A stretch of DNA of 64,000 bases. It comes from Verrucomicrobiales bacterium (GTDB lineage: Bacteria > Verrucomicrobiota > Verrucomicrobiia > Verrucomicrobiales > DEV007). Location of the stretch: assembly GCA_029213195.1 (NCBI GenBank), contig JARGNI010000009.1, forward strand, positions 89,768 through 153,767, in the 5' to 3' direction. Below the pieces are notes generated by a model. The model ran no database searches, had not been told where the DNA came from, and saw only the letters and a list, made by a program, of their open reading frames with translations. Below, piece after piece: positions 6,310 through 57,872 of this stretch (its first letter is position 1; each line of letters starts with the position of its first letter). The translations under genes and the position numbers were made by a program.

Positions 6310-9300
6310 CTACTGCCGAGGCGGATCGGCCTCACGAACGAGGGCTCCGTGTTCTCGACTCATGACAAGGAGGCTAAACCTCTCCACGCCATCGAGTTCG
6401 TTGGTACTGAGCCCGACATAGTCGAACTTCCCTCTGAGATCGGTATACCCGTCCTTGTAGAATCGAACCGAGCCATCATTCATTCGCGCATAGACCTTCA
6501 CATAGGTCTTGGGCAAGGGGTTCCCTTCCTCTGAATGACGAACCTCGAGACGTCCATAGCGATCCGCCAGGTTTACCCGCAGTTGATTCGAATAGATCGG
6601 AACACTCTTCCGCTGACCGTCGGCGATGACTTCGAGGAGGATATTTCGACTCGCATACTTTTCGGGGAGCGCAATATCGATGGAATCGCCTCCTTCCGGC
6701 AATGGGATAGTCTGGGTCTGGTTGGGCTCGATGTAGCTGAACTGACTGCTGCCTCCGGAGACGAATGGCTCACTCGAGAAAAGAAACTCCAGATCCATTT
6801 CGTAGTAGTGAATCTGGGCTTCGTCGACCTCGTGATAATCCAAAGTCACCTTTCTGCCTTCCACGATCAGATCGATCCCAGCTTCGCGAGCGGATAGATC
6901 GTCGAGACGATCTTCTCGCTTCTCGTCGTCCTTCTCGACTTGCCCACCCTTGATCTCTTCGACCTGGCTCAGGACGTTTCCAAACTTCTCGCGCCAGCGG
7001 TCTACGGGAAACTCCTCGTAGGCGACGGCGATGTTCCGTGCCTGATCGACTTCCTCTCGATACAAGGCGATGTAGGCAGAGAGATAGTCATACTGCAACT
7101 GCTCATCGATCTCATCCCGAGATACCGACTCGTGCCATTCCAACGCTTCTTCGATCCGATCCTGGAGAAGCAGGTAAGCGGTCACCGAGAGCCGGTCTTC
7201 CGGGCTCAGTTCAGAACGATACTGCAGGACAGACAGCAGGGATTGATACTGCTGGAAAAACTGGTCATTGAGAATGTCCCGGTTCCGTCCCAGGCGATGA
7301 GAGCGAGCATTCACCAACGGCGAATACTCGAGGTGCTGATGCCAGTGCCTCTCCACCGGTTCGATGGAGACGAGGTCACAAGCCAACCAGTCGCCACACT
7401 TCTGCAGGAAACCTTCCTGGTGTTTCAGAAACTGACGAGCCTGATCCAACTCGCCATGAAAGAGTCCATAGCTCCACAAGGAGGGATCATAGCTCCTTCT
7501 CTGGTTGAGCACTCGCGTGACACGTCCGAAAAACTCCTTGTTCTCGCGAACCCTCCAAGCGATCCGACTCAAGTCGACAACCTGCAGATTCTTCTCGGCA
7601 AGAAACTGAATCACTTCCTCGTCACTTCCCTCCTGGGAAAGATACTCCCAAGACGCTTCGTCGACCTGACTCAGGGTTTCCACCACCCGGAAGGAGAATG
7701 GCTCTCCAGATGCGATCACTTTTTCCTCTTTCGCGACCTGCACCGGATAGATGGGAAATCCATCCTCTCCAGACGATTCCGGAAAATAGAAAGCGATCTC
7801 CTGCTGGCGTGTCGAAAACGGTTCCAAGAGGATCGGAAACGACTTGGTATAGTGACTCGCGGAAACTGGGACCGCTCCTTCTGGAACCTGGATCAGGAGT
7901 TCCAGTAAATGAGGACTGGAGCTTGGATTCGTGACCACGACCTGGCTGCCATAGACGACTCCGGTGAGGAACTCCTCGGTCACGAACTTGTCGCGACGCT
8001 GGCCCTGCTCCACTACATAGCGATCATCGAGGCGATAGAAATTCTGGCTCACGAGAACGGGACTCGCCTCCTCGGCTCTCGTCGCTTCTCGAATCTCCTC
8101 ATGGAAGACCACACTCGGGGACTTGGCGACAAAGGTGAGAAGGTTGTCGTCGACCGAAATCTCGGGATCCGCAGACTCGAAAGGCAAATCCAAAAGGCTG
8201 AGGACAAACATCATCTCCGTGAAATTTCGGGTCGCGACGGGAAACTCTCTCGAGTAGAAACCGCCTTCTCCATCCCAAGCCGCGAAGTCGGCCCAGAAGG
8301 CATTTGCGGTAACGAGCTCGCCCAACTGCTGCTCGATCGGGAGCTCGTAGTAGTTGTTCTCCGCCCACTCCCGAGTTGCTTCGAGCGCCTCGAACATGGC
8401 CACTTCCTTTCCCCGCTCCCGAACGATCGACAATCGTGCTCCCAACATGGCCTCTTCGTCGAGATCCTGGATCGCATCTGCCATCGCTGCCTGAGGCATC
8501 TCCATCTCGGATTCCTCGGCCAGCTTCATGCGAGTTCTCGCAGCCGAGTTGTATCGATCACTCGACTCGCCAGGGCTGGCGGGTGCGGCAAAGGCATCCG
8601 CCACTCCGCCTCCCCCCATACCTATGGCTCCACCGCTGCTGAAACCAGCCCCGAATTGGAGTCTCCCTCGCACCCCTTCGCTATCGGACCTGCGCCCGAG
8701 AAGAGCCTGCTTGAAAAAGAGGGACTTCTGCATCGGATCGGGTGGGATCAAGGTCAGTAAGTCCTGCAGGTAGCGCTCCGTTCTGCCCCGCTCGTCGCCT
8801 CCGAGCCGCTGACTCAAGAGGATTCTCTCCACGATATTGAGCCGACCGAACTCCCAGGGTTGCAAATAGATCGAAAGATCGGCATCGAGCAGGTAGTGAT
8901 CGAGAAAAGTCTTGTCCTTCTTGTTCCGTAGATACGGGGCGATGACCTTTGCAAAAAAGTCGGGATCCTTCCTCGAAAGGAAAAAACTCAGCTCGTGGCA
9001 GGCGTGCTTGGAGTAAAGGGACTGCTTGGCTGCCTCATCGAGACTGGGCCACGACCGAATAAAATGAAATTTTGTCAGGGTTTCGTTCGGCTGAATCGAC
9101 TGCAAGGTGGAAAAGATCTCTCCAATGGTGCTGTAGCTCTCGAGGCGAGTGGAGCGGAAATCATCAATCTCCAGTTTCTCATCAGAAAGCAAAAGCGTTA
9201 CATTTCGCTGCTGCGTGTAGGGCTTTTCGGCTTCAAGCCCCTCTGACAACGACAGATCCCGAATCGGAAGTTCCTTTTTCTCCGGAATCACTGCAAGACT

Positions 9301-12300
9301 TTGGTAGGCCACCTGGTCGCCATCTACCGCAAGCAGGTGAACATGCTGTCGATCAAGCAGGAGCTCGCGATCGATGCTGAGTTTCCCGTTCGCATCCGGC
9401 TCCAGGTTGACGAGGAAAACGGGCTGGGTGCCCAGAAAGGTCATCGAAGTTGAGACCGAGCCCGATCTGCCGAGCCTTCTCTTGGCTTCCGCCTTAGGCT
9501 CCGGGCTGCCCTTCCGCTTGGCGCTTTTGTTCATCCCGCTCTTCCTGAACTCATCGCCGATCTCGGCGAGCTCAAGATCCGTTTCCGTATCCTGCAGGGC
9601 CCAGGGATTCAGCAACACTCCGGGACGAGGCAACATGTTCCCGGGGAAGACTTTCGTGGTCCGTCTTTCGAGAATGTAGCGATACTCCTCGCCGATATCC
9701 CGGCCCGAAACATACAGAGATTCGAGATGTCTTCGCTCCCAGGAGAAGAGATTGTCGTGCATCGGGATGGACAACTTCTCGAAAGGAGAGAACTCGGGGA
9801 GAAACCGTGTCGCGAGCAGATGCACTCGACCCTTCTCGCTGAAGTTTCCGATCTCGAGATCGACCGACTCCTCTGCGACCTCCATGGTCCGGAAAAAAGG
9901 GATCTCCTGATTTCCGGTTTCCAGGAGCCGATCCCTGCCCAGGGCATATCCGAGCGATCGCGCCGTCGCCTCGACAACCCGGAGGGAAATCGTCTTTTCG
10001 GAATCTCGCAAGTGGAGGAGATAATCACCGGGATCGAGATTCTGCAATTTGAGATGTCCCTCTGCTTTCTCTACCTGAGGAAACCAGTCCTTCTTCAATG
10101 CACCCTCGCGAAGTTCAAAAAAAGCGAAATCGCTACGATCGACTTCACGCCCCAGAGTGCCAACCGGGATTTCGACGGATTCTCTCGAAGAAATTTGAAT
10201 CAAAGAGGGAAGACGGACGGCCTCGGCCTCGACGTTCCAGCTTCGTGAGTGAATGCCTTCGTGCGAGGCTTCGACCCGGGTGATGGAATCGAGATCACCC
10301 AAAAAGATTTTTCCCTCCGGATCCGACTTGAGATTGGTTGCAATCGGTTCCGTGAAGTCTTCGTGGTGAAGACGGACGTGGACGGAACGGTCCGCGAGAC
10401 ATTCCCCGGTCCTTCCCAGCACTTCAAGTTGATAGCCTTCCGTGGTTCGCGAAAAGTAGAGATCGCGGGTGAACGTCTCGCGATCGATGCCATTGACCTC
10501 GAACTCGTGAGTGGTGCTCACGACCTGCTCTCCAGAAGACTGGCTGATCAGGGAAATTTTTCCGGTCAATTCGACCCGGACCGATCGCAATCGGTCCGGC
10601 ACGAGGAACTCGTAGATTGATTCCTGATCGTCATGGAAAGGAAACTCTCGTTTTTCGCTGAGAGACTCGATGCCATCCTGGTCGACCAGCCGAACCGTCA
10701 GCTTGGGTTCTTCGATCAAGCCGGGATCCACTTCTTCTCCCCCCAGCGAAAGATGTGGCCGGATCGCGAGTGCGGCCTTCTGGCCCGGGATCAAGCTCTC
10801 CTGGCTCAGGAGAATGCCCGCATCAAAATCGTAGGTTTCCTGAGGAAGGTAGATCTCGGCGAGTGAACTCATTCCCGATCCAGTCAGGACGAGAGAGGCA
10901 TTTCTCTCTTTGGAAAATGGAAGCAGGATCAAGCCATTGTCATCTGGTCGATAGGAATTTCCCGCCAACCAGATCGACGGGTCCTCCGCCGGCTCATTGT
11001 CTTCGGTAAGGACGCGAACGATTTCTCCCCCTGCCGTGGGTTGCGATACATAGTGTAGCCCACCCTTCCGAATCAAGGCTCGCGAACTGATCCCGTTTCC
11101 GATGAATTCCGCGACCCATACGCCTCGTTGGCCTTCGAGACCTTCCAGCGAAATCACCTCCGTATGCCGTTGCATCGAGGTCTTGTCGTAGCGTAGCGAG
11201 AACTCCTTGTTGGCGGTGAGTCCATCGAGTTTCAAATCCGTGTCGATTTCCTCTCCCTCGTCTCGATAGAAATTGAACTCGTTGATGTGATACAACTTCA
11301 CGAGAAGCTCGGAAACGTTCTTGAGCTCCACCTGCAGCGAAACTTCCTCCTCCGGAGAATGCCGAGCCGGATTGGTCGGAAGGAGCGAGATCTCCACTCG
11401 GTTTCGGAGATCCTCCACGTGGGTGGGTGTCAGCATCGCATACCAGCGTTCGGCATCGCCGACTCCGTAGAGCAACTTGGTCGATGCGAAGACCGTCTTC
11501 AGATAGTTCTCCCGGATATAGGGTTGGTATTTCTGATAGGATTCCTCCGTTTGGAAATATTTCTCGAGGTAGGCCCGGACCAGTTCATCATCGGAACGGA
11601 TCGGCCGAATCCCGATGGGTCCGGAAAAATCGGCGGAAAGATCCGCAAGAGGTTCGCCTCGCATCTGCTTCTGCAAATACTTCGGTTCCACATAAAAACA
11701 CTGACGAGGCAGCTTCAGGTATTCGAGGAAGAGGTCCTCAGGGTATTCTCCGAGCCGGCGAGCGATATCGAGCCGACGATACAGCACCGAAGCCTTCTGC
11801 GAATTGAAGGCTGGTGCCAGTTCCTTGACGAAATCCCAGACCAGGGAGAGATACTCGGATTTCTCATCCAGCGAGAGCTCAGTCAGGTCCTCCACAGGCG
11901 GACGCATTCGGATGAGCCGCGCCGTGACATACTTCTGATCGTGAATCAATTCGGGTCGCAACCCCTGCAGCTCGATCAACTGATCTTCCGTCAGTTTGAG
12001 ATGAATCGGAAACTCGCCGAAACCCTTGCTCTCCTTCGTCCGCAGCTCGGCGGCAATGATCCCGACGAGACGATCATAATCCGGCAATGAAATCCGCTTG
12101 AGAAGGTCCCGGCGCTGAGCGGGATTGAGCACGACTTCGTTTCGCACGATGTAATCCAGCCCCTTGGCGGTAACTCGAGATAGATTCTGCTGATTCCCAT
12201 TTCGCTTGTAGTAGGACTCCCAGTTGATCTGACCGGGATCCAAACGAGTTGGGAAATCGGGAGCTTCTCGAAGTTGCTGCTTTTGGTGATCGAATCTCAA

Positions 12301-12654
12301 GCCCAGCTGCTTGCGGAGATATTCGATCGTCGCATCCGGAGAATCACGATAGGTCAACAAGACCTGCCGATGACGGATCTCCTGCAACTGTGGAGTTCGT
12401 CCATGCCGTTTCTCCCATTCTTCGAGGATTCCTTCGACATCGGCAAACCGCTCTTCCTGCTGGGCGAGGAGAGTATTGTAGAAATAGAATTCCGGAGTTC
12501 CAGGAACCAATTCTGCAATGGCCGCTTTACGATCCTCGGCGAGAGCAAATTCTTCGAGAAATCCGATTTCATTTGCTGTTGTCTTGGAGGAAAGCAGGGA
12601 CATGAGCAGAAGAAAGAAACAAGGGATCCAGAAGATCCGTGTTGGGGTTTTCAT
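6310..12654 (-). CDS. Giant exported protein (2114 aa), possibly alpha-2-macroglobulin-like
   Basis: The ATG at 12654 is preferred over the track start because it gives a clean signal peptide (FWIPCFFLLLMSLLSS). The mature protein is mostly beta-rich and charged. Residues roughly 430-650 (ELLVKLYHINEFNFYR, GVWVAEFIGNG, LIRKGGLHYV) resemble the MG1/MG2-type beta domains of bacterial alpha-2-macroglobulins, and a later segment (LLELLIQVPEGAVPVSASHY) resembles their late domains. I find no GCGEQ-type thioester. A Gly/Ala-rich linker (FSSGGAIGMGGGGVADAF) sits near residue 1390. The C-terminal third looks helical or repeat-like, followed by a beta-rich end. Function is unknown; protease trapping or a surface scaffold are possibilities, not conclusions. 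Confidence 0.75.
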   Translation of the reverse strand: MKTPTRIFWIPCFFLLLMSLLSSKTTANEIGFLEEFALAEDRKAAIAELVPGTPEFYFYNTLLAQQEERFADVEGILEEWEKRHGRTPQLQEIRHRQVLLTYRDSPDATIEYLRKQLGLRFDHQKQQLREAPDFPTRLDPGQINWESYYKRNGNQQNLSRVTAKGLDYIVRNEVVLNPAQRRDLLKRISLPDYDRLVGIIAAELRTKESKGFGEFPIHLKLTEDQLIELQGLRPELIHDQKYVTARLIRMRPPVEDLTELSLDEKSEYLSLVWDFVKELAPAFNSQKASVLYRRLDIARRLGEYPEDLFLEYLKLPRQCFYVEPKYLQKQMRGEPLADLSADFSGPIGIRPIRSDDELVRAYLEKYFQTEESYQKYQPYIRENYLKTVFASTKLLYGVGDAERWYAMLTPTHVEDLRNRVEISLLPTNPARHSPEEEVSLQVELKNVSELLVKLYHINEFNFYRDEGEEIDTDLKLDGLTANKEFSLRYDKTSMQRHTEVISLEGLEGQRGVWVAEFIGNGISSRALIRKGGLHYVSQPTAGGEIVRVLTEDNEPAEDPSIWLAGNSYRPDDNGLILLPFSKERNASLVLTGSGMSSLAEIYLPQETYDFDAGILLSQESLIPGQKAALAIRPHLSLGGEEVDPGLIEEPKLTVRLVDQDGIESLSEKREFPFHDDQESIYEFLVPDRLRSVRVELTGKISLISQSSGEQVVSTTHEFEVNGIDRETFTRDLYFSRTTEGYQLEVLGRTGECLADRSVHVRLHHEDFTEPIATNLKSDPEGKIFLGDLDSITRVEASHEGIHSRSWNVEAEAVRLPSLIQISSRESVEIPVGTLGREVDRSDFAFFELREGALKKDWFPQVEKAEGHLKLQNLDPGDYLLHLRDSEKTISLRVVEATARSLGYALGRDRLLETGNQEIPFFRTMEVAEESVDLEIGNFSEKGRVHLLATRFLPEFSPFEKLSIPMHDNLFSWERRHLESLYVSGRDIGEEYRYILERRTTKVFPGNMLPRPGVLLNPWALQDTETDLELAEIGDEFRKSGMNKSAKRKGSPEPKAEAKRRLGRSGSVSTSMTFLGTQPVFLVNLEPDANGKLSIDRELLLDRQHVHLLAVDGDQVAYQSLAVIPEKKELPIRDLSLSEGLEAEKPYTQQRNVTLLLSDEKLEIDDFRSTRLESYSTIGEIFSTLQSIQPNETLTKFHFIRSWPSLDEAAKQSLYSKHACHELSFFLSRKDPDFFAKVIAPYLRNKKDKTFLDHYLLDADLSIYLQPWEFGRLNIVERILLSQRLGGDERGRTERYLQDLLTLIPPDPMQKSLFFKQALLGRRSDSEGVRGRLQFGAGFSSGGAIGMGGGGVADAFAAPASPGESSDRYNSAARTRMKLAEESEMEMPQAAMADAIQDLDEEAMLGARLSIVRERGKEVAMFEALEATREWAENNYYELPIEQQLGELVTANAFWADFAAWDGEGGFYSREFPVATRNFTEMMFVLSLLDLPFESADPEISVDDNLLTFVAKSPSVVFHEEIREATRAEEASPVLVSQNFYRLDDRYVVEQGQRRDKFVTEEFLTGVVYGSQVVVTNPSSSPHLLELLIQVPEGAVPVSASHYTKSFPILLEPFSTRQQEIAFYFPESSGEDGFPIYPVQVAKEEKVIASGEPFSFRVVETLSQVDEASWEYLSQEGSDEEVIQFLAEKNLQVVDLSRIAWRVRENKEFFGRVTRVLNQRRSYDPSLWSYGLFHGELDQARQFLKHQEGFLQKCGDWLACDLVSIEPVERHWHQHLEYSPLVNARSHRLGRNRDILNDQFFQQYQSLLSVLQYRSELSPEDRLSVTAYLLLQDRIEEALEWHESVSRDEIDEQLQYDYLSAYIALYREEVDQARNIAVAYEEFPVDRWREKFGNVLSQVEEIKGGQVEKDDEKREDRLDDLSAREAGIDLIVEGRKVTLDYHEVDEAQIHYYEMDLEFLFSSEPFVSGGSSQFSYIEPNQTQTIPLPEGGDSIDIALPEKYASRNILLEVIADGQRKSVPIYSNQLRVNLADRYGRLEVRHSEEGNPLPKTYVKVYARMNDGSVRFYKDGYTDLRGKFDYVGLSTNELDGVERFSLLVMSREHGALVREADPPRQ

Positions 12655-12660
12655 GGCCCG

Positions 12661-12666
12661 GTTATA
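12661..12666 (-). promoter_or_regulatory. Possible -10 element for the giant gene
   Basis: On the minus strand the bases TATAAC (in GTTATAAC) lie 6 nt before the ATG at 12654 and downstream of the terminator of the upstream operon. No good -35 box is seen at normal spacing. If used, transcription would begin almost at the start codon, giving a leaderless mRNA. This is a weak call. Confidence 0.25.
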
Positions 12667-12727
12667 ACGCAACTGCCCTCCCACCGTAAGCCTCAAGTTG
12701 TAAAGAATTCACGAGCGACGTACGCAA

Positions 12728-19604: not shown

Positions 19605-19775
19605 GATAAGGGCAGGATCTCTAGCCATTTGAGAAAGGATGAGAAAATTCCGCATTTTCGCCATACTTTTCAGCGCGACCCGTGCCAAATATACCGTAAC
19701 ATGGTAAGATTACGTTGTTTTTTCACAATGGAGCCATGCTCCACCCCCAACCCCTGCGTAGAAAACCTTAGCGTT

Positions 19776-22700
19776 ATGAAGAAGATCTCTACCGTCTCCC
19801 TGACCCTCGCCCTCTCAGGATACATCCTCACCGCGACCGCCGACCCCTCGAACAAGGTCACCTTTGTCGATGATGTTCTGCCCATCCTCGAGAACAAGTG
19901 CGTCAACTGTCACAATGCCGACGAAGCAAAGGGTGGTCTGAATCTAGCCACCTACTCGGCCACCCTCACTGGAGGTTCCGGTGGAGAGGTGGTCGTGTCC
20001 CAGGACCCCGGCTCCTCCCGACTCTACACGCTCTCAGCCCACACCGAAGAGCCTTTCATGCCGCCAAAGGGAACCAAAGCGAATGAAAAAGAACTGAAAG
20101 TCCTCTCGGACTGGATCGCAGGCGGACTTCTCGAAACGGCAAACAGCAAAGCTCGCAAATCCGACAAGCCAAAGATCGACTTCGACTCCATTACTTCCAC
20201 CGGGAAGCCCGAAGGTCCCCCGGCCATGCCCGAGCATCTGCTCCTCGAGCCGGAAGTCATCACCGAGCGTCCCAACGCCGTTCCCGCGATGGCTCACAGT
20301 CCCTGGGCGCCCATTCTCGCGGTCGCCGGTCAGAAGCAAGTGCTTCTCTATCACTCCAGCGACTTTGATCTCCTTGGAGTCCTCCCCTATCCCGAGGGAT
20401 TCCCCCAGACACTCTCCTTCAGCCCGAACGGCGCCTATCTTGCCTGCGGAGGCGGGCGTGCCGGTAAATCCGGGAACGTCGTCGCCTGGGACATCAAGAC
20501 CGGCGAGCGAATCCTCGATGTTGGCAAGGAATACGACATTGTTCTCGGTGCCGATGTCTCCCCCGATCTCAAGAATGCCGTTCTTGGAGGCCCCAAGCGA
20601 AACATCAAGCTCTGGGACACGGTTGCTGGCGAGCAGCTCAACAGCATCAAGAAACACCCCGACTGGCTCCTGACCGCAGCCTACAGCCCTGACGGCGTCA
20701 TTTTCGCCACCGGAGGCAGAAACGGAGGTCTCTACGTCTGGGAAGCCGCGACCGGATATGAGTTTTACACCCTGAAAGGACACACCAAGGCCGTAACCGA
20801 TATTTCATGGAGAATGGATGGAAACGTCCTCGCTTCCTGTTCCGAGGACGGGCAGATCATTCTCTGGGAAATGCTGGAAGGAAAACAGGTGAAGAAATGG
20901 AACGCTCATGGCGGCGGCGCTCTCGCCGTAACATTTTCGCCGGACGGTAAACTGGCCTCAGTCGGTCGGGATAAGACCGTGAAGATCTGGGAAGGTGACG
21001 GAAAGCAGATCCGATCGATCCCTGCCTCGGACGACATCGTCCTGAGTGTTGCCTTCAGTCACGACAACCAGCGAGTTTTCTCGGGAGACTGGCACGGCGT
21101 TGTGAAAGTCTGGGACGTCGCAAGCGGCGCCGAGCTTGCCAAGATCGAACCCAATCCTCCCACGATCGAGCAGCAACTCGCCTACTCCGAAAAGCGGATT
21201 GGAGAACTCACCGGATCAATTCCCGCTCTTGAAAAAGGGGTCGAAGTCGTTTCCAAAGAGCTCACCGATGCGAGAAACCAGGCCGCCGCGATTGCGAAGA
21301 CGATCCAGGAAGCGACGAAGTCGAGAGATGCTGCGAAAGCCGAAGCCACCAAGTTCACGAACTCGGTCAAGACGTTGACAGCCCAGCTTGAGCAAGCGAA
21401 GGCGCTGGTTACAATCCGCCACGGTGAGACGAAAAAGCAGACCGACGCCCTCGCCGCAGGCAAGCAAGCCCTCCAAACCACGGAAGCTCAGTTCGCCAAG
21501 GAAGACGCGAGTCTAGCCACGAGCACAACAGCATTGGCACAAGCAAAGACTGCCCTCGACAAGGTCACCGCCGATTCCAAGATTCCGGCCCTGAACGCAG
21601 AGCAGAAAAAGAAATTCGACGAGCTCGCGGCTTCCCGCAACGCAATTGCGGCCCAGAAGCAGAAGATCGATGCCTCTCTCACCGAGAAGACCAAGCAGCT
21701 TGATCCGGCCAAGCAAGCCCTCGCCGCTGCGGAAGAGGCGCTGAAAAAGGCCAAGGACGCCAGTGCCTCGAACGAACAGAACTGGAAGGCAAAGGATGCG
21801 GCCCTCGCGGCGAGCCGACAGGCTCTCCAGGCCGCGGAAGCCGCCCTGGCCGAAGCACTGAAGCAAAATCCCACGCCACCGAAGGAATTGGTCGACCGGA
21901 AGAACCAGGCTGCTCAGGCGGTCGCTGCTGCCGTCGCCGCGAAGGCCGAAGCAGAAAAGGCTCTCAATCAGTCCGTCGCGGCTGTGCCACCAACAACCAC
22001 CAAGCGGAATGAGGCGGCCGCTCGCAAGTCCATGGTCGAGAATGAACTGAATGTTCTCCGCAAATCGCAAGCCGATCTCGGAACCAAACTGGCAGCTGCC
22101 GATGCCGCCTGGGAACCCCTCAAGGATGCCCTTGCCGCTGGAGAGTCTCGCGTCGCGAAGACGAAGCAGGCACTTGCAGCAGCAACTGCAAATCACCAGA
22201 AGGCGGCTCAAGCGGTTCAAACCACAAAGGCGGCTCGGGACAAAACCGCCCAGATCGTTGCCGCCACCAAGACCAAGGTGACCCAGATCGAGGGTGCTGT
22301 CGCCAAGGCCACCGAAGAGCAGAACAAGGCCCAGACCGCTCTCGCCGCCAAGCAAAATGAGCTCAATGCCGCGAACACACAGCTCGCCGCCGCTAACGCC
22401 ACCCTCAAGAAATCCGAGGAATCGCTCGTTGCCGCCACCAATCAGCAGGAAGCCGCCAAAGCCAAGGTGGACGCGATCGTGAAGAAGGAGTCGGAAACGA
22501 AGGCTAAGATCGAGATTGCGAAGAAGGAACTCGATCAGTCCAAGTTCCTTGCCAAGAAGTGGCAGGCCGCCGCAATCAATCTCAGCGCCCACAAGGAATC
22601 CGAAGAACTCGATGACATGGCCCTCGAACTCGAGGACATGATGGAAGAAGAGAAGGAAGCAAAGACGGAGGTTGCGGAAGCATCCCAGGCTCGCGCCGAA

Positions 22701-23342
22701 GCGGAGAAGACTCTTGCCGAAGCCAAGTCCACCGTGTCTGAGGGAACGAAGAAGCTCATGGAAAAATCGACCTCGGTCCTGGAACGTGCGCTCCAGCTCG
22801 TATCGAGCCGAGCCGTTGCCGAACTGAGGGAAGAAGCCGTCCAACTCCAGCCGATCCTCACGGAAGCGGACTCGGAAAAAACTCTTATATCCGTTCAGTC
22901 CGATCCCGTCACCACCGACCTTGTCGATACCCGAATCCCGGTCGATGCCATTGTCACCGAAGGTCTCGAAGAGGAGGCCGCGGAAGAGCAGAAAGTCATC
23001 GAGACGGTGGCCGCCAAGGCGCTCTCCTACAAATCACCGGACGAGATCAACAGCGAAGTCGAATCACTCCGCAAACGTCTCTCGGATATCGAGAAGTTTC
23101 TCGCCAACACCTACACCGAAGCGGATCGCACCAAGGAAACGATCGAAAAGGCGAACGAGGTGGCCCAGAAGACCCCTGAACTCGTCGCAGAACGTTCCAA
23201 GGCAGAGCAAGCCGCAGCTCGTGAACTTGCGGAAGCCGAAGCCGAAAGGAAACGCCAGGAGGAAGCCCTCAACGCTCAGAAAAAGCGGATCGAAGAGCTG
23301 CGCGCGAAGTATCTCGCCACTCTTCCGGAAAGGAAAGAATAA
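19776..23342 (+). CDS. c-type cytochrome / WD40 propeller / long coiled-coil protein
   Basis: The ATG at 19776 gives a signal peptide and 1188 residues. A planctomycete-type cytochrome domain has CVNCH at residues 42-46 and a distal MPPKGTKANEKELKVLSDWI. A WD40 propeller follows (about residues 165-455; for example TAAYSPDGVIFATGGRNGGLYVW and DISWRMDGNVLASCSEDGQIILW). From about residue 460 to the end the protein is an Ala/Lys/Glu-rich heptad-like coiled coil of roughly 700 residues. It is divergent from the DUF1501-PPC-PSD1 operon. The layout suggests a periplasmic or surface heme protein with a propeller adaptor on a long rod; partners are unknown. Confidence 0.9.
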   Translation: MKKISTVSLTLALSGYILTATADPSNKVTFVDDVLPILENKCVNCHNADEAKGGLNLATYSATLTGGSGGEVVVSQDPGSSRLYTLSAHTEEPFMPPKGTKANEKELKVLSDWIAGGLLETANSKARKSDKPKIDFDSITSTGKPEGPPAMPEHLLLEPEVITERPNAVPAMAHSPWAPILAVAGQKQVLLYHSSDFDLLGVLPYPEGFPQTLSFSPNGAYLACGGGRAGKSGNVVAWDIKTGERILDVGKEYDIVLGADVSPDLKNAVLGGPKRNIKLWDTVAGEQLNSIKKHPDWLLTAAYSPDGVIFATGGRNGGLYVWEAATGYEFYTLKGHTKAVTDISWRMDGNVLASCSEDGQIILWEMLEGKQVKKWNAHGGGALAVTFSPDGKLASVGRDKTVKIWEGDGKQIRSIPASDDIVLSVAFSHDNQRVFSGDWHGVVKVWDVASGAELAKIEPNPPTIEQQLAYSEKRIGELTGSIPALEKGVEVVSKELTDARNQAAAIAKTIQEATKSRDAAKAEATKFTNSVKTLTAQLEQAKALVTIRHGETKKQTDALAAGKQALQTTEAQFAKEDASLATSTTALAQAKTALDKVTADSKIPALNAEQKKKFDELAASRNAIAAQKQKIDASLTEKTKQLDPAKQALAAAEEALKKAKDASASNEQNWKAKDAALAASRQALQAAEAALAEALKQNPTPPKELVDRKNQAAQAVAAAVAAKAEAEKALNQSVAAVPPTTTKRNEAAARKSMVENELNVLRKSQADLGTKLAAADAAWEPLKDALAAGESRVAKTKQALAAATANHQKAAQAVQTTKAARDKTAQIVAATKTKVTQIEGAVAKATEEQNKAQTALAAKQNELNAANTQLAAANATLKKSEESLVAATNQQEAAKAKVDAIVKKESETKAKIEIAKKELDQSKFLAKKWQAAAINLSAHKESEELDDMALELEDMMEEEKEAKTEVAEASQARAEAEKTLAEAKSTVSEGTKKLMEKSTSVLERALQLVSSRAVAELREEAVQLQPILTEADSEKTLISVQSDPVTTDLVDTRIPVDAIVTEGLEEEAAEEQKVIETVAAKALSYKSPDEINSEVESLRKRLSDIEKFLANTYTEADRTKETIEKANEVAQKTPELVAERSKAEQAAARELAEAEAERKRQEEALNAQKKRIEELRAKYLATLPERKE

Positions 23343-49387: not shown

Positions 49388-52300
49388 TCAGGGAGTGTAG
49401 ATCCACTCCGGTGAATTGAGCATCGCCCAGATGACATCGGTCATCCGAAGACGCCAGTCTTCGCGGAGCGCGTTGGTGGGAGAGTCGCCGGCACGGGCTT
49501 CCTCCTCCTTGATGACCGCGAGCTCATTGGCAGCAGGGTCGAGATGGTTCGACCAGCTCACATAGCGCTCGGGCTCACGCTTTCCAGGTTTCTCAACGAC
49601 CCGCTCTCCCGGGGGAACGACACGGTCGTCATACCCTTCCGAGAGAAAGGCGACATACTTGTCTTTCTCGGACTGCGAAGGCTTCCGGGTGAGGAGTCGC
49701 AGGTAGAGTCGATCGACCAGCTCCTCGACCGACTGGTCCTCGAGGGCGAGCTGAGTGAGGCCATGGTCATCGCTGAGCTGAGTCAGCCAGACTCCCATGG
49801 TGCCATTTGCAAGAATCGCGGGCTGGAGAACGTTCTCCTCCGTGTCACGCATGCTGATGGGATCCTGACGGGCACCCCGCCAGCCGAAGGTTTCCATGAT
49901 GCTCGCAACCGCCTGGATCCGAGGGAGTGAAAGACTGGGGCGATCCCGCTCGTTCGAGGTCGAGGCGAGCATCCAGGCACGCCGCGGTTTCCCGAGAGTG
50001 ATGGATTGATTCAAGGTTCGTCCGCTGTCGAGATCGAGACTGACTTCTTCCACATTGAAAGGCTTGCCCGTCGCACTGAATAGACTGTCGATGATCTGCT
50101 CGGCCTGGAGGCGACGCGGAGCCGGGGAAATATAAAGCGGGCTGGTCTTCTGCAGGGTGGGATCGGTCGCACGCTGATAGGCATGAGACTCGAAGATGAC
50201 CCGAGCCACTTCCTTGAGATCATAGTCCGAGGCAACCAGCTTTCTTCCCAGCCAGCGAAGCAATTCCGGATGAGAGGCATTCCCCTTCTCCCAATCGTGC
50301 ACGGTCTCGATGATCCCGCGTCCCATGATGCGCTGCCAGACCCGGTTCGCCATGACCTGGGCAAAACGCTCGTTCGCCGGAGCGGTGATGAGGGCAGCGA
50401 GACGATCTCGCTGGCTGTTGGGGTTCTGGACGAGACCGGCAGCGTCTTCGACGGAGACGAATTGCTCGAAGGGCCAGTCCGGAGCGACCGTCGTGCCCGG
50501 CTTCAAGGTCACTTGAATGAGAGGCTTTCTCGCTCGCTCATGAAGCTTGTCCATGGGGACACTGCTGCTCATCGGCAACTTGACCGGCTTTTCTCCAAGC
50601 ATGGCTGCGAGTTCGAAAAGGTCTTCCTGCATCCATTCGTGTCCTGGCGCATCATGACACCGCGCACACTTCATCTCGACTCCGAGAAACGCGGAGCTGA
50701 CGACGATGCCTTTCGCCGCCATCGGCACATCGTTTCCGGAAGCGGTTCCAAACCCTCTCGGACCGCCAAACCTCTCGCTGCCTTCCATCCGAATGAGCTC
50801 GGTGACGAAGAGATCGATCGGCTTGTTGTCGACAAGAGATTCGTGAATCCACCAACGGAAGGGTCCCGTGTTGTTCAAGGTCGGGTTGATGATGTTGGGA
50901 TTCTCCGCGAGAACATCCTGCCAGTATCCCATCCACTTGTCGGCCCAGCGCTCGTCCGCGAGATAGCGATCGATCGCAAGCTTGCGGCGGTTCTCTTCCG
51001 GATCGGAGAGAAACTGATCGATCTCGGCCTCCGAGGGAGGAACCCCAATCGTGTCGAGTGCAAGGCGACGCAGGAAGGTGAGGTCATCGGTCAGGGGATT
51101 CGGTTCAAAAGTATCGACATCGAATTGCGGCCAGGAAGCGCCTTCCTTGACCCATTGCTCGAGCATCGCGATTTCTTCCTCGGAGAGCGGATCGCCTTTG
51201 GGAGGCATGATGTCGTCGCCGGCGTCATGGCGAATCCGCCAGATCAGCGAGCTGTCATCCACTTTTCCCGGAGTCACGGCAGGGCCGTCGTATTCGCCGC
51301 CGGCGAGCGCCGCTTCGCGCGTATCGAGGCGAAGTTCCCCCTTGATCTTGCTACCCTGGTGACAGTCGTAGCACTTTGCTTCGAGCAGGGGCTTGACCTG
51401 CTCGAAATAATCGATACCGCCCTCCGCCGAAGGCTTCGATTCCGCCGCGACCTTGACGATCTGTGACCCGATGAAGTGATCGATCTCATTGTGAGCCGGC
51501 ATTCCCTCGGGCAGTTCCGGAATCGGAACGGCTTCCTGCGAAGCGAGCCAGCTCTGAACAGCCTTCCGTCGCATCGTCCAGAAGTCGGCGTGCTCGGCCC
51601 GCTTCTCGGCACGACGTCTCGTGTTCTCTTCCTCGATCCACTGGCGTGACTTTTCTTCATACACGGCCCACTCCTGGTCATTGTAGCCGATCTTTTCTTC
51701 TCCCGGGCTGAAAACCTGCCAGGTCTCGCTGCCTTCGAGCGAAATGGCTGCGACAGTCTCGCCAAACTCGGGCCGACGACGATTGCTACCTGCGACACCA
51801 CCGATCATGGACTCGAGGATGACGAAGTGCTCGCCGCCTTCGGATTCAAACTCGACCCACTTCTCATTGTTCCCCGGAGGAGAAAACCGAAAGTCCGGTC
51901 CGAGATCGAGATACTTGTCCTGCAAAGCCAACTTGTTGTGTCCACCCGAGGTACGGGTCGAAGAAATCTCGAGCACCTTCTTCTCATCGATGAAGAGACG
52001 CGACATGCCCCGTCCCCGAAGGAGGAGTCGATGTTTCCCTGCAGGGATCCGGACTAGGGCAGCAGCCCGAAAATGAGCAGGATTGGCACGGTCGGCACGG
52101 ACTCCGGTGCTGATGTACTTCTGCGGCCAGTCGACGAAGCCCAGTGCCTCGGCGGAGTAGGATTCCGTCACTTCCGGATAGTGGGGCCAGGTATTGGACG
52201 CGGGCACCCCTCGTTCGCTGATCTGCACGAGCACCTCGTCTTCTTTCAGCATCTTCCGGGTGATCGGCGGTGGCGGCGGAGTGAAGGTGAACCGGTCGAG

Positions 52301-53032
52301 CAACACCTTTTCCGGAAGGGCCTCTCGATAGATGCGCACATTGTCGAGCCAGCCATTGAAGGTCTGGGAGCCTCCCTGGAGATATCCCGTCCCGATGATC
52401 AGGTCGGAGGCATCACTGACCGGAGCGCGATTCGTCTTTCCCCCCATGTCCCAGGTGCCGTCGGTGCGCTGTCCATCGATGTAAGCGCGAAGACTGTCGC
52501 CGTCACCGAAGGTGTAGACGATGGCAACGTGATGCCACTCTCCCCGCGGAAGGGTCATCGAACTCCACCAGCGGTGCCATTCGTTTCCGCCCTTGCTTGC
52601 AGAGTCATTCTCCGGTGCGGTGCTGGCAAAAAGAAAACCGAGACGCACGCCGTATTCGTCCGCCTTGAGACGCATCGCGTAGTTCTGATCGATCCCGCTG
52701 CCATGACGACCTTTACCGATCAGGTAGGGCATCGATCCCGAACCGAGCGAGCCGACCTTGACCCAGGCTTCCATGGTGATGGAATCTCCCTTCGTGAACT
52801 CCACCGCTTTGGAACTCTCGACGATGATCGCGTCGTTCTTGTTCTGGAAGCGCTTCGCGACATTGTCACCCGTCTGCTCGGGATACTGAGGGGATCGCGG
52901 ACCGACTTCCTTGGAATCGTCGAACAAGTATTCGAGCACTGGCTGCGCCTTATCATCCTGGGCGGAGGCTGGGACAAAGGGGAAAACGAGCGAAACCAAC
53001 GCTGCTGTGAAAACAAAGGATCGGGGGATCAT
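49388..53032 (-). CDS. LamG / PSCyt1 / PSCyt2 / PSD1 multi-domain cytochrome
   Basis: The ATG at 53032 gives a signal peptide (SFVFTAALVSLVFPFVPASA) and 1214 residues. A LamG/concanavalin-like domain lies near residues 45-250 (TMEAWVKVGSL, GEWHHVAIVYTFGDGD, GWLDNVRIYREAL), then a beta-rich region with RLFIDEKKVLE, a PSCyt1 heme site CYDCHQ near residue 554 with IMPPKGDPLSEEE, PSCyt2/DUF1549 with CARCHDAPGHEW near residue 790, and PSD1/DUF1553. The LamG part suggests binding to a glycan. It heads a two-gene unit with a DUF1501 gene and is divergent from the halogenase gene. Confidence 0.92.
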   Translation of the reverse strand: MIPRSFVFTAALVSLVFPFVPASAQDDKAQPVLEYLFDDSKEVGPRSPQYPEQTGDNVAKRFQNKNDAIIVESSKAVEFTKGDSITMEAWVKVGSLGSGSMPYLIGKGRHGSGIDQNYAMRLKADEYGVRLGFLFASTAPENDSASKGGNEWHRWWSSMTLPRGEWHHVAIVYTFGDGDSLRAYIDGQRTDGTWDMGGKTNRAPVSDASDLIIGTGYLQGGSQTFNGWLDNVRIYREALPEKVLLDRFTFTPPPPPITRKMLKEDEVLVQISERGVPASNTWPHYPEVTESYSAEALGFVDWPQKYISTGVRADRANPAHFRAAALVRIPAGKHRLLLRGRGMSRLFIDEKKVLEISSTRTSGGHNKLALQDKYLDLGPDFRFSPPGNNEKWVEFESEGGEHFVILESMIGGVAGSNRRRPEFGETVAAISLEGSETWQVFSPGEEKIGYNDQEWAVYEEKSRQWIEEENTRRRAEKRAEHADFWTMRRKAVQSWLASQEAVPIPELPEGMPAHNEIDHFIGSQIVKVAAESKPSAEGGIDYFEQVKPLLEAKCYDCHQGSKIKGELRLDTREAALAGGEYDGPAVTPGKVDDSSLIWRIRHDAGDDIMPPKGDPLSEEEIAMLEQWVKEGASWPQFDVDTFEPNPLTDDLTFLRRLALDTIGVPPSEAEIDQFLSDPEENRRKLAIDRYLADERWADKWMGYWQDVLAENPNIINPTLNNTGPFRWWIHESLVDNKPIDLFVTELIRMEGSERFGGPRGFGTASGNDVPMAAKGIVVSSAFLGVEMKCARCHDAPGHEWMQEDLFELAAMLGEKPVKLPMSSSVPMDKLHERARKPLIQVTLKPGTTVAPDWPFEQFVSVEDAAGLVQNPNSQRDRLAALITAPANERFAQVMANRVWQRIMGRGIIETVHDWEKGNASHPELLRWLGRKLVASDYDLKEVARVIFESHAYQRATDPTLQKTSPLYISPAPRRLQAEQIIDSLFSATGKPFNVEEVSLDLDSGRTLNQSITLGKPRRAWMLASTSNERDRPSLSLPRIQAVASIMETFGWRGARQDPISMRDTEENVLQPAILANGTMGVWLTQLSDDHGLTQLALEDQSVEELVDRLYLRLLTRKPSQSEKDKYVAFLSEGYDDRVVPPGERVVEKPGKREPERYVSWSNHLDPAANELAVIKEEEARAGDSPTNALREDWRLRMTDVIWAMLNSPEWIYTP

Positions 53033-53198: not shown

Positions 53199-54722
53199 AT
53201 GGCATCCTCCTTGAAAAAATCGATCACCGTCGTCGGAGGCGGCAGCGCGGGATTCCTCGCCGCTATCACCCTCAAAGCCCGAATGCCCGTTCTCGACGTC
53301 ACCGTCGTGCACTCCTCCGATATTCCGATCATCGGGGTCGGTGAGGGCAGTACTCTGACCATGCCGATCTACCTCCACGGCTATCTCGGAATCGACCCCA
53401 CTCGTTTTCACAAGGAAGTGGAGCCGACCTACAAGCTCGGAATTCGCTTCCTCTGGGGTCCTCGAGAACGGTTTCACTACACTTTCTCAAGCCAGCTCGA
53501 CAAGTTCCTCCCCGGGATGCCTCGACCCAACGGGTATTTCGCCTATGAAGACTTCGACTATGCCGATGTCGCGGGAGCGCTTGCCGCCCACGACAAGGCA
53601 TTTCTCAAGCAAAAGGAGGGAGGCGGACCGGTAGTCAATACCGACGTCGCCTATCACCTCGAGAATGTTCCCTTCGTCCGATTCCTTGAGAAGTATGCTG
53701 CCGAAATCGGAATCGAGATCGTCGACGATCGTGTGGACGAAGTGGAGCAGAGCGAAGCCGGCATCAAGGCCCTGCATCTTGAATCGGGGCGGATCCAGAC
53801 CGCGGACCTGTTTGTCGACTGTTCCGGGTTTTCCTCCCTCCTTCTCGGAGAAGCCCTGGAGGAATCCCTCCAGTCCTTCGACTCCAGTCTCTTCTGCGAC
53901 CGGGCCGTCGCCGGCGGATGGGACCGCGAGGAGGAAACCCTTCTCCCCTACACCACCGCGGAGACGATGAATGCCGGGTGGGCCTGGCAGATCGAGCACG
54001 ATGACCACATCAATCGAGGCTACGTCTACAGCTCTCCCTTCATCAGTGATGACGAGGCGGAGAAAGAATTTCGCGAGAAGAACCCGAAGGTGAAGGACAC
54101 CCGCATCATCAAGTTCTCCTCGGGTGCCCGAAAGCGAACCTGGGTCAAGAATGTAGTCGCCCTCGGCAACTCGGCCGGCTTCGTGGAACCCCTCGAGGCC
54201 ACCGCTCTCGCCGTGATCTGCGATCATGCCGCCAAGCTGATCCATTGTCTCGCCGACTCCTATCTGGAAATCGATCCCACTTCGCGGAAATACTACAACG
54301 ATTACTGCTGGGACACGTGGGAGAACATTCGTCGCTTTCTCGCGATGCACTACAAGTTCAACTCTCGCCTTGATACCAAGTTCTGGGAAGCCGCACAGAA
54401 CGATACGGACATGTCGGGAGCCGAGGAGATCATGGAATACTACGAGGCATGCGGCCCCGCTACACTCTGGGCGGGGAAGGCCATGGGCCCGAACGATCCA
54501 TTTTCCTGGGAAGGATATCTCGTCATGCTGGTGGGTCAGAAAGTGCCCTTCCGTCGATCATTTCAATCCACGGAAGCAGAGAAGGCGAATTGGAAACGCT
54601 ACCACGAAGACCTCAAGAAAACCGTAAGTGATGCCCTGACGATGCGTGAAAGCCTCGACATGATCCGGTCCGACCAGTGGGGCTGGCATCCCGATTTCTA
54701 TCGGAGCGCTTCCCGTTGGTAG
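53199..54722 (+). CDS. Flavin-dependent halogenase of the tryptophan-halogenase family
   Basis: The 507-residue protein has the FAD site VVGGGSAGF, a Lys at residue 79 in EPTYKLGIRF (the position of the chloramine-forming Lys in PrnA-type enzymes) and Glu in FVEPLEATA near residue 333. Two signatures are altered: WxWxIP reads WAWQIE and FxxPxxSxG reads FxxPxxAxA. Family members use reduced FAD and oxygen to chlorinate or brominate indoles or other aromatics and need a separate flavin reductase, which I do not see nearby. No natural-product genes flank it; neighbours are PSD1, ThuA and heme-dehydrogenase genes. Halogenation activity is therefore likely by family but unproven. Confidence 0.85.
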   Translation: MASSLKKSITVVGGGSAGFLAAITLKARMPVLDVTVVHSSDIPIIGVGEGSTLTMPIYLHGYLGIDPTRFHKEVEPTYKLGIRFLWGPRERFHYTFSSQLDKFLPGMPRPNGYFAYEDFDYADVAGALAAHDKAFLKQKEGGGPVVNTDVAYHLENVPFVRFLEKYAAEIGIEIVDDRVDEVEQSEAGIKALHLESGRIQTADLFVDCSGFSSLLLGEALEESLQSFDSSLFCDRAVAGGWDREEETLLPYTTAETMNAGWAWQIEHDDHINRGYVYSSPFISDDEAEKEFREKNPKVKDTRIIKFSSGARKRTWVKNVVALGNSAGFVEPLEATALAVICDHAAKLIHCLADSYLEIDPTSRKYYNDYCWDTWENIRRFLAMHYKFNSRLDTKFWEAAQNDTDMSGAEEIMEYYEACGPATLWAGKAMGPNDPFSWEGYLVMLVGQKVPFRRSFQSTEAEKANWKRYHEDLKKTVSDALTMRESLDMIRSDQWGWHPDFYRSASRW

Positions 54723-54785: not shown

Positions 54786-55544
54786 ATGAAACGCATTACC
54801 CTTCTCCTGACCGCCCTCTCGATCGCAGGTCTCCTGCCTCCCCTCGCTGCTGAACCCCATCTCGTCTTCCTGCTCGGGGAGAAGGAATACAAGACCCTCG
54901 AGACCGTCCCCGAGTTTTTCGAGTCGGAGTTGAAACCCCGGGGATACACCGCGACCTTCATCACCGCCCCTCCGGAAGAGGGAAAACGGGACGATTTCTC
55001 CGGTCTCGCCGAGGCCCTGCAGAAGGCCGATCTCTGCGTTATCAGCGTGCGCAGACGCGCCCCGGCCATCAAGGACATGCAGGCCCTGAAAAACTTCGTC
55101 GCCGAAGGTAACCCGATCGTCGCGATCCGCACCTCGAGCCACGCCTTTCATCTCCGGGGAAAGAAAGCACCCGAAGGTCGAGAACTCTGGGAAGCGTTTG
55201 ATCGAGAGATTCTCGGAGGGAACTACCACGGTCACTATGGGAATGAGTTGGTGGAAATCTCAGTAGATCCCGAAGCTAAAGAGCACCCCATCCTCAAAGG
55301 CGTTGAGAAACTTCCCCCGTCCGACAAACTCTACGAGCCTCGTCCCCTCACAAAATCCACGACTCCCCTCCTTTATGGAAACCTTCCCGGAAAGAACCCG
55401 GAGCCTGTCGCCTGGACCAACCGGGCCGGCGAGAAAAGAGCGAAAGTGTTCTACACTTCCCTCGGACAAAAATCGGACTTCGAGGACGCGGCCTTTCGCA
55501 AATTCCTGGCGAATGCGATCGAGTGGGCTCTCGACGAAACCTGA
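54786..55544 (+). CDS. Exported ThuA-domain protein
   Basis: The ATG at 54786 gives a signal peptide (RITLLLTALSIAGLLPPLAAE) and 252 residues. ThuA text is HLVFLLGEKEYKTLETVPEF, VISVRRRAPAIKDMQALKNFV, IVAIRTSSHAF and KVFYTSLGQKSDFEDAAFRKFLANAIEW. ThuA-like proteins are class-I-glutamine-amidotransferase-fold proteins linked to sugar (trehalose, glucoside) processing; no catalytic nucleophile Cys is obvious here. It stands 63 nt after the halogenase and 210 nt before a heme dehydrogenase, the same two partners that are fused in the 38735-42937 gene. Confidence 0.88.
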   Translation: MKRITLLLTALSIAGLLPPLAAEPHLVFLLGEKEYKTLETVPEFFESELKPRGYTATFITAPPEEGKRDDFSGLAEALQKADLCVISVRRRAPAIKDMQALKNFVAEGNPIVAIRTSSHAFHLRGKKAPEGRELWEAFDREILGGNYHGHYGNELVEISVDPEAKEHPILKGVEKLPPSDKLYEPRPLTKSTTPLLYGNLPGKNPEPVAWTNRAGEKRAKVFYTSLGQKSDFEDAAFRKFLANAIEWALDET

Positions 55545-55754: not shown

Positions 55755-57872
55755 ATGAAAAGCATCCTCCTGGCCATCACCCTGGGAACGTCTCTTCTTC
55801 TGCCCTCCTCTGGATGGACGCAGAGTGGTGACAAAAAGGAAAAGAACAAGGACCTCCTTGATTCCACCAACTGGAGAAAATGGGCACCGGATCCGGTTCC
55901 CTACCTCAATGCGGAGGAAACGCTCGACACATTCAAGATCGCTCCCGGCTTTCGTATCGAACTGGTAGCCGAGGCCCCTATGATCAAGGATCCGGTCTTT
56001 GCCGAGTTCGATCTCAAGGGTCGTCTCTGGGTCTGCGAATTTCAGACCTACATGAAGGACCTCGACGGTTCCGATGAAAATGTCGCCGACAGTCGCGTCA
56101 TGGTTCTCGAAGATACCAATGGAGACGGCAAGATGGACAAGTCGACCGTCTTTCTCGACGACGTGATCAACCCCCGGGGACTGACCATCGTCGAGGGCGG
56201 AGCCCTCGTAGCCACGGGAGACGGGCAACTTCTCTTCTGCGAAGACACCGATGGAGATTTGAAGGCGGACAAGAGAACGCCGGTCCTCGAATACGCGACC
56301 GCCGCCTCAGGGAACATCGAGCATGCTGAAAACGGCCTGCACTATGCCATCGACAACTGGATGTACAACTCCAAGTCGAACCGCCGCCTCCAGTGGAAGG
56401 ATGGGACCATCCTCGCCACGGATACCAAGAGTCGGGGTCAATGGGGAATGAGCACCGACGCCTATGGTCGGCTCTACTACAACACCAACAGTGCCTGGTT
56501 CTACACCGACTCCGAGATCTACGATCGGCAATACGGAGACCCCAGGGCCAAGAGCGGTCTCGTCCGAGGAATTCGGACGAATACGGCAATGAACCGGGCC
56601 TACAACCCCGGCATGATCAAGGAGGACGGTCGGATCGATCGAGTCACTTCCGTCAGTGGACTCGCCGTTCACAGTCACGGAGCCTTCGGTGAAGAGTGGG
56701 AAGGAACCATCTTCAGTTTCAGCCCAGGCACAAATACCGTCGCGGCCTTCAAACCCGACAAGCCCATGCCCGAGACCAAGGGATTCAACCAGGTGCACTA
56801 CCCCGACGAGAAGTGGTCGCAGCGTGAATTTCTCGCCAGCACGGACGAGCGTTTCCGCCCCGTCAACGGTTCCTTCGGCCCCGACGGCTGTCTCTACATC
56901 GTCGATCTCAATCGTGGTGTCATCCAACACAAGAAATTCCTCACCAGCTACCTCCGACGGCAGTCGGCGGAGCGCGAACTCGACAAGCACATCGGGAAAG
57001 GTCGCATCTGGCGGGTCGTGCCCGAGAAATTCGAGAAGGTGCCAGCGCCAACAGATCTCGTCGAGGGACTGAATCACCCCTACCTCTGGTGGCGCCTCAA
57101 CTGCCAGAAGCGCATCGTCGAGCAGCATCGCAAGGACCTGGCTACCAAGATTACGGAGGTGGCCATGAACGGAACCGACCCAGGGCAGGCCCACGCCATG
57201 TGGACCCTCGCCGGTATCGGGGCTCTCTCCAAGGAGGTCGTGAGCAAAAATCTCGAAGACGACGGATGGTTCGTCCGGATGACGGCTCTTCGGCTTGCCG
57301 GGGAATCCACTCCGCTCCCTCACATCTTTCCCGCGGACTACGTCTCCCATGCCAAGGCCATCGGTGACAGCAACACCCCGGTCCTCTCCGAGTATGCGAA
57401 CCTTCTCGCAACGAAAGGATATCCAAATCGATTTGCCTCGATCTACAAGGACAAGGAGCCGGGCTGGATCAAGAAGGACAAAGATCTGCACGATTCCTAC
57501 CAGCGCGGTCTCACTACCTACTCGCAATACTGTGCGGCCTGTCACCAGCCTCACGGAAAAGGGCTCACGAACCTCGCGCCAAGCCTCGTCAAGAGTGACT
57601 GGGTCAGCGATAACCCCCATGTCCTCATCGGAGTGGCGATGAACGGTCTCAGCGGCCCCATCTCCGTGAACGGCAAGCCAGTCACCGACGTGCCCCCCAT
57701 CATGCCACCCCACAACTTCCTGACTGATCAACAAATGGCCGACACCCTCACCTACGTTCGCAACGCGTGGGGAAACAAGTCGGACAAGATCACACCCGCC
57801 CAGATCAAGGAGTATCGGGAGGCGCACAAAGAGCGTCCTGCTCCCTGGACCGAAGCCGAGTTGCGGAAGTAA
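55755..57872 (+). CDS. PVC-type heme-binding dehydrogenase with C-terminal cytochrome c
   Basis: The 705-residue protein has a signal peptide (MKSILLAITLGTSLLLPSSGW), a membrane-bound-dehydrogenase-type propeller (KDPVFAEFDLKGRLWVCEFQ, LEDTNGDGKMDKSTVFLDDV, SFGPDGCLYIVDLNR), HEAT-like helices (AMWTLAGIGALSKEVV) and a cytochrome c with CAACHQPHGKGL near residue 592 and IMPPHNFLTDQQMADTLTYVRNAWGN. It probably oxidises a sugar in the periplasm and passes electrons through its heme. It follows a ThuA gene. The 209-nt gap upstream shows no clear regulatory signal. Confidence 0.9.
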   Translation: MKSILLAITLGTSLLLPSSGWTQSGDKKEKNKDLLDSTNWRKWAPDPVPYLNAEETLDTFKIAPGFRIELVAEAPMIKDPVFAEFDLKGRLWVCEFQTYMKDLDGSDENVADSRVMVLEDTNGDGKMDKSTVFLDDVINPRGLTIVEGGALVATGDGQLLFCEDTDGDLKADKRTPVLEYATAASGNIEHAENGLHYAIDNWMYNSKSNRRLQWKDGTILATDTKSRGQWGMSTDAYGRLYYNTNSAWFYTDSEIYDRQYGDPRAKSGLVRGIRTNTAMNRAYNPGMIKEDGRIDRVTSVSGLAVHSHGAFGEEWEGTIFSFSPGTNTVAAFKPDKPMPETKGFNQVHYPDEKWSQREFLASTDERFRPVNGSFGPDGCLYIVDLNRGVIQHKKFLTSYLRRQSAERELDKHIGKGRIWRVVPEKFEKVPAPTDLVEGLNHPYLWWRLNCQKRIVEQHRKDLATKITEVAMNGTDPGQAHAMWTLAGIGALSKEVVSKNLEDDGWFVRMTALRLAGESTPLPHIFPADYVSHAKAIGDSNTPVLSEYANLLATKGYPNRFASIYKDKEPGWIKKDKDLHDSYQRGLTTYSQYCAACHQPHGKGLTNLAPSLVKSDWVSDNPHVLIGVAMNGLSGPISVNGKPVTDVPPIMPPHNFLTDQQMADTLTYVRNAWGNKSDKITPAQIKEYREAHKERPAPWTEAELRK

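Follow-up and report, generated by a model that had tools for sequence, protein, structure and literature searches.

Sequence databases contain many flavin-dependent halogenases that lack a natural-product context, and for most of them the substrate is not known. Among the characterised enzymes, MibH (PDB 5UAO) is the tryptophan-5 halogenase of the lanthipeptide NAI-107 and chlorinates tryptophan, its substrate being a small modified RiPP. ChlH, the chlorolassin halogenase, is 58% identical to MibH and chlorinates tryptophan in peptides as well as in an unrelated protein of 1054 aa (PMC12518702), while SrpI and MppI are RiPP tryptophan brominases that are guided by a leader to their peptidyl tryptophan, SrpI having been discovered with MibH as query (PMC12615548, PMC11791876). 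Other relatives follow a different pattern, as BrvH (6FRL) brominates free indole and not tryptophan (PMC5945002). The natural substrates of BrvH and of Xcc4156 (6Y1W), both of which belong to PF04820, are uncertain. QhpG (7CTQ), a flavoprotein of related fold which is structurally closest to CmlS, dihydroxylates tryptophan within a protein (PMC7876137).

The window enzyme and its closest relatives

The window, that is, the whole stretch of 64,000 nucleotides from a Verrucomicrobiales bacterium that was analysed, carries on its + strand an intact open reading frame (53199..54722) for a 507-aa protein of the flavin-dependent halogenase type, residues 9-454 of which match positions 2-449 of the 458 in the PF04820 profile (346.7 bits where the cut-off is 21; E 2.8e-103). 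Its GxGxxG FAD-binding motif, found both in the sequence and by alignment, reads GGGSAG (residues 13-18; 53235..53252, + strand), and Lys79 (53433..53435, + strand) aligns with the catalytic lysine K79 of PrnA and RebH, this residue being invariant across an 8-row alignment and in 65/65 full-length members of the clade described below. The segment FVEPLEATA (residues 328-336; 54180..54206, + strand), identified in the sequence and by alignment, contains Glu333, the equivalent of the catalytic Glu346 of PrnA. The strict WxWxIP motif was not encountered in the 507-aa protein; alignment places at this point WAWQIEH (residues 261-267; 53979..53999, + strand), of which residues 261-266 retain both tryptophans and the isoleucine with a change of proline to glutamate, a histidine following, and shortly thereafter NRGYVYS (residues 272-278; 54012..54032, + strand), whose xRGYV stands where most of the compared enzymes have a GxGYV-type segment. 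An earlier note on this DNA had reported that the catalytic lysine and glutamate equivalents are kept, that WxWxIP reads WAWQIE and that FxxPxxSxG reads FxxPxxAxA, and all of these readings agree with the alignment; what did not survive is the treatment of the last of them as an oddity, since the same positions vary inside the clade (Ser/Ala and Gly/Ala/Ser, respectively) and the final glycine is also missing from BrvH and Xcc4156. On the sequences compared, the departure from FxxPxxSxG is often met elsewhere and is unremarkable.

The failure to match strict WxWxIP weakens the label of canonical halogenase rather than the case that the enzyme may work like a halogenase. From the conserved Lys79 and Glu333 we infer that the protein halogenates, and its sequence supports halogenase chemistry. 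An AlphaFold model computed from an 8-sequence alignment was poor (mean pLDDT 54), and the structure of the altered loop was unreadable from it. No signal peptide is evident on the window enzyme.

In a single-sequence search the best match of known structure was MibH, with 305 bits as compared to 198 for the next, and a profile search gave the same order with 379 bits against 273. The nearest reference group to the clade in our phylogenetic tree likewise consists of MibH and a Streptomyces relative, and by sequence MibH, a peptide-tryptophan halogenase, is the closest characterised relative of the window enzyme among the references used, the sequences of ChlH, SrpI and MppI being absent from the tree. 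The two proteins align nearly end to end at about 38% identity and have the GxGxxG motif, the catalytic lysine and the glutamate in common; MibH, however, keeps both WxWxIP and FVEPLESSG. Compared by description only, ChlH resembles the window enzyme as a relative of MibH that acts on peptidyl tryptophan but differs in sitting in a RiPP gene cluster, and SrpI and MppI, again by description only, are likewise flavin-dependent and modify peptidyl tryptophan, but do so on small precursor peptides. The kinship with MibH supports, at the level of sequence, a peptidyl substrate. BrvH and Xcc4156, which resemble the window enzyme in their PF04820 membership, their uncertain natural substrates and the lack of the final glycine of FxxPxxSxG, differ in that WxWxIP is kept and in that they form a separate branch in the tree. 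Kinship with the cyanophage halogenase VirX1 was rejected as an explanation, as this enzyme falls on a separate branch and its score of 176 bits lies well below the 305 of MibH.

A clade with an altered WxWxIP motif

The altered motif is well supported by the sequences as a property of a distinct clade to which the window gene belongs, and not as a quirk of a single gene. Phylogenetic analysis of 78 sequences gave the clade, with degenerate tandem partners included, a support of 100/98, and the hosts of the clade are Verrucomicrobiota together with one Phycisphaerae MAG. The signature WxW[QRK]I[ED]...xRGYV is present in 65/65 full-length members, with histidine after the Glu/Asp in 64 of these, and as the position of the WxWxIP proline is occupied by Glu or Asp in all 65, and by proline in 8/8 outside enzymes (MibH, PyrH, LooH, BrvH, Xcc4156, VirX1, the PDB 9LUQ enzyme and the Streptomyces sequence, taken from printed alignments with partial ends), we regard the change as a fixed signature of the clade. 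The PDB 9LUQ enzyme carries only the database name 'Tryptophan halogenase' and is labelled 'XszFHal' in our alignment. The xRGYV segment, too, is found in 65/65 members, the sequence of the outside enzymes compared being different there. The GxGxxG motif is likewise conserved in the clade. Verrucomicrobiota MAGs contain orthologues that are 61-73% identical to the window enzyme, one of which is partial, and the Phycisphaerae relative is 47% identical. By profile search, 54 of the 369 genomes of the order carry the clade family, as do two genomes from elsewhere in the class, while viral contigs yielded one distant relative only.

The earlier note had proposed a clade with an unusual substrate, perhaps a glycan-linked phenol or a surface component, and had asked for a phylogeny with characterised halogenases. 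In our tree the clade lies outside the compared tryptophan, indole and phage halogenases, and among the sequences searched no established clade was encountered that shares the motif changes and has a known substrate. The clade is thus distinct and strongly supported, as had been suggested, and the surface component gains indirect support through the clade-wide gene associations described below; nothing was found to indicate a glycan-linked phenol. By sequence, it is an uncharacterised clade related to peptide halogenases and marked by the altered motif, which would also offer a test of what WxWxIP does.

Surface-protein genes beside clade halogenases

A large, repeat-rich surface-type protein is the immediate neighbour in 25 of 66 clade loci, and when proteins ending in a PEP-CTERM signal are counted as well, such a neighbour accompanies 32/66 clade halogenase genes; large surface-type proteins were defined, by a composition rule of our own that was set once the pattern had been noticed, as having at least 600 aa, being rich in G/S/T/N/A/V/D and poor in Lys/Arg/Glu, and having at most few membrane helices. 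By the same rule the neighbour was found for 20/249 random genes, drawn from 20 regions in few genomes of one neighbouring family, and for 8/228 genes at least four positions away in the same loci, the genes of the clade loci having been called by a script trained on those loci. Surface-protein neighbours are therefore about six times as frequent beside clade halogenases as at random (Fisher p 1e-12, a value which overstates the independence of related loci and is indicative only), and after clustering of the halogenases at 70% identity the association stands at 16.3/35. Among the neighbours sampled were LEPR-XLL giants with beta-helix, PATR/autotransporter-repeat proteins and PEP-CTERM proteins, and because these types differ, the association is not readily ascribed to one inherited synteny. 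About half of the clade loci are without it, and a subclade (L055, L057, L115, L123, L125, L131) instead adjoins a cation/proton antiporter gene, most of its loci having other FAD enzymes upstream. Taken together, the clade neighbourhoods support surface proteins as substrate.

In the window's own genus, the LEPR giants lie directly downstream of the halogenase in three genomes (G006, G621, G616) and divergently from it in two related ones (G643, G646), and are not its neighbours in the window genome, G618 and G620; several LEPR matches are away from any halogenase. Contig C57 of the window genome carries two open frames of the LEPR type, 18,544 and 16,801 aa in length (L164 and L165; 111564 and 167706), whose N-terminal family is the same as that of the giants beside halogenases in related genomes. 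This family occurs in 6/6 halogenase-bearing genomes of the window genus as compared to 5/28 others (p 3e-4), with two of the six matches being weak and several genomes incomplete. The two giants on C57 are the first candidate substrates of the window enzyme. In a neighbouring family of the order, autotransporter-like proteins are marked by the N-terminus TRASL.ATA..N.RWF, and of the 369 genomes of the order, 11 have the TRASL...RWF N-terminal family. A clade halogenase is present in each of these 11 genomes, which are related and do not represent 11 independent events. Several of the 26 TRASL matches lie beside a halogenase and others do not. 'RWF' is common to the N-termini of the LEPR and TRASL proteins; as the modified residue it was set aside as a lead only, other neighbours being without RWF.

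The window enzyme itself is not adjacent to a surface giant. Its divergent neighbour (49388..53032, - strand) is a secreted LamG/PSCyt1/DUF1549/DUF1553 protein, a ThuA-family gene (54786..55544, + strand) begins 64 bp downstream, and a DUF7133 and cytochrome c protein (55755..57872, + strand) follows; these three assignments are profile matches and serve as context only, and sulfatases are also among the neighbours. This confirms the earlier description of surface cytochromes and ThuA/heme-dehydrogenase genes in place of biosynthetic enzymes, as no biosynthetic genes were seen among the window proteins scanned, which represent part of the window ORFs. In the same set no RiPP precursor or other RiPP enzyme was recognised, small ORFs lying outside a systematic precursor search. 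The window genome holds 20 ThuA and about 41 DUF7133 matches, and because these families are so abundant the window's own neighbours say little on the substrate; deducing the substrate from them was rejected as uninformative. A second clade copy in the same genome, on contig C57, has no surface-type immediate neighbour. At L071:686-11008, DUF1553-like, DUF1501-like, ThuA, DUF7133 and clade halogenase genes stand consecutively on one strand, a content which resembles that of the window locus.

Proposed function and competing readings

We tentatively favour, at somewhat less than even confidence, a MibH-like enzyme that halogenates aromatic residues, most likely tryptophan, of secreted surface proteins before their export. 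Such an enzyme would use FADH2 supplied by a reductase, O2 and chloride or bromide to form HOX, which would pass through a tunnel to Lys79 and, with the assistance of Glu333, halogenate an aromatic side chain, most likely of tryptophan, in LEPR giants, autotransporter-repeat or PEP-CTERM proteins, the reaction taking place in the cytosol ahead of export. What was directly observed is the fold family, the conservation of the catalytic residues, a clade with its own signature, the kinship with MibH and the clade-wide genetic association, whereas halogenation, a protein as substrate, the residue and the timing would follow from them by inference. A surface-protein substrate is accordingly best described as a hypothesis that has support, more so for the clade at large than for the copy in the window. 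In the literature accessible without subscription, preprints aside, no paper was found tying halogenases to Verrucomicrobiota surface proteins.

That the enzyme is an ordinary small-molecule halogenase, with free tryptophan, indole or another metabolite as its substrate and a surface-gene neighbourhood that would mark where such genes accumulate and not the substrate, is in our judgement rather unlikely, but deserves to be taken seriously. Small molecules are the substrates of most characterised relatives, an NRPS gene adjoins the gene of a Streptomyces plasmid relative (36% identity) which groups with MibH, and the antiporter-linked subclade, mostly accompanied by other FAD enzymes, is where such a function is possible in particular. 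On the other hand, the nearest characterised relative modifies a peptide, the proteins scanned at the window locus included none of biosynthetic type, and the roughly sixfold excess of surface-protein neighbours involves differing neighbour families. The change of proline to glutamate in WxWxIP raises the question of a flavin monooxygenase that hydroxylates tryptophan or tyrosine of surface proteins, in the manner of QhpG in the formation of tryptophylquinone. This is conceivable because a role in preventing monooxygenase activity has been suggested for WxWxIP (PMC5945002) and because QhpG, of related fold, provides a precedent for hydroxylation of peptidyl tryptophan (PMC7876137). QhpG is also the best NCBIfam match of the window enzyme, with LodB and GoxB listed as well, but at E 3e-9 and 36.3 bits the match is weak and far below the family cut-off of 240; moreover Lys79 and Glu333, which are required for halogenation, are kept in the clade and both tryptophans of WxW are intact, so that we consider a hydroxylase improbable. 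A joint role of the enzyme with the secreted DUF1501/DUF1553, ThuA, DUF7133 and sulfatase proteins encoded next to it, directed at a glycan-linked phenol, is very improbable. The proximity of ThuA on the same strand and the occurrence of the same gene families upstream of a 42%-identical halogenase from another family of the class (L071) would fit such a role, but these families abound in the genome, the combination of ThuA and DUF7133 was found at 2/66 loci, which by our estimate is not above chance, and the neighbours look exported while the halogenase has no evident signal peptide.

Halogenation of surface proteins, the reading preferred here, may extend to a second gene in part of the clade. 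In 13 genomes of one neighbouring genus (L060, L061, L064, L066, L167-L175) a clade halogenase that is intact or nearly so is followed immediately downstream by a second PF04820-related gene, and in 13/13 of these paralogues the catalytic lysine is replaced by Cys, Leu, Asn, Thr or Ser, GxGxxG is altered and the catalytic glutamate is replaced, yet the WxWx.[ED]H segment is kept (with His or Arg following in one case). Because a paralogue devoid of catalytic residues retains this segment, its sequence suggests that it is a partner with no catalytic role, and gives a hint that binding or structure, and not catalysis, is what the altered motif is for. A broader and still more tentative proposal is that of a dedicated protein-halogenase family which would chlorinate or brominate aromatic residues in giant and autotransporter-like surface proteins before export, with the degenerate paralogue as partner subunit in one genus, and thereby halogenate ordinary, non-RiPP surface proteins. 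Through its repeated neighbourhoods and co-occurrences the clade offers a testable substrate class, namely secreted surface proteins. If the proposal is true, structural proteins of the bacterial surface would be modified by enzymatic halogenation, and the clade would provide enzymes acting on large proteins, which are wanted for protein labelling.

Further genes of the window and its genome were recorded in passing. At 6310-12696 of the window (- strand) is a gene for a protein of 2,127 aa that has an apparent signal peptide and matched no Pfam family at E 0.001, and a PSCyt1 cytochrome fused to WD40 repeats is encoded at 19629-23342. The window genome also contains a third PF04820 gene (L025:2021-3520, on contig C56), which keeps WxWxIP and groups with the cyanophage VirX1 on a long branch; the other genes of this 11.6-kb contig look phage-like, and it is possibly a viral contig in the bin.
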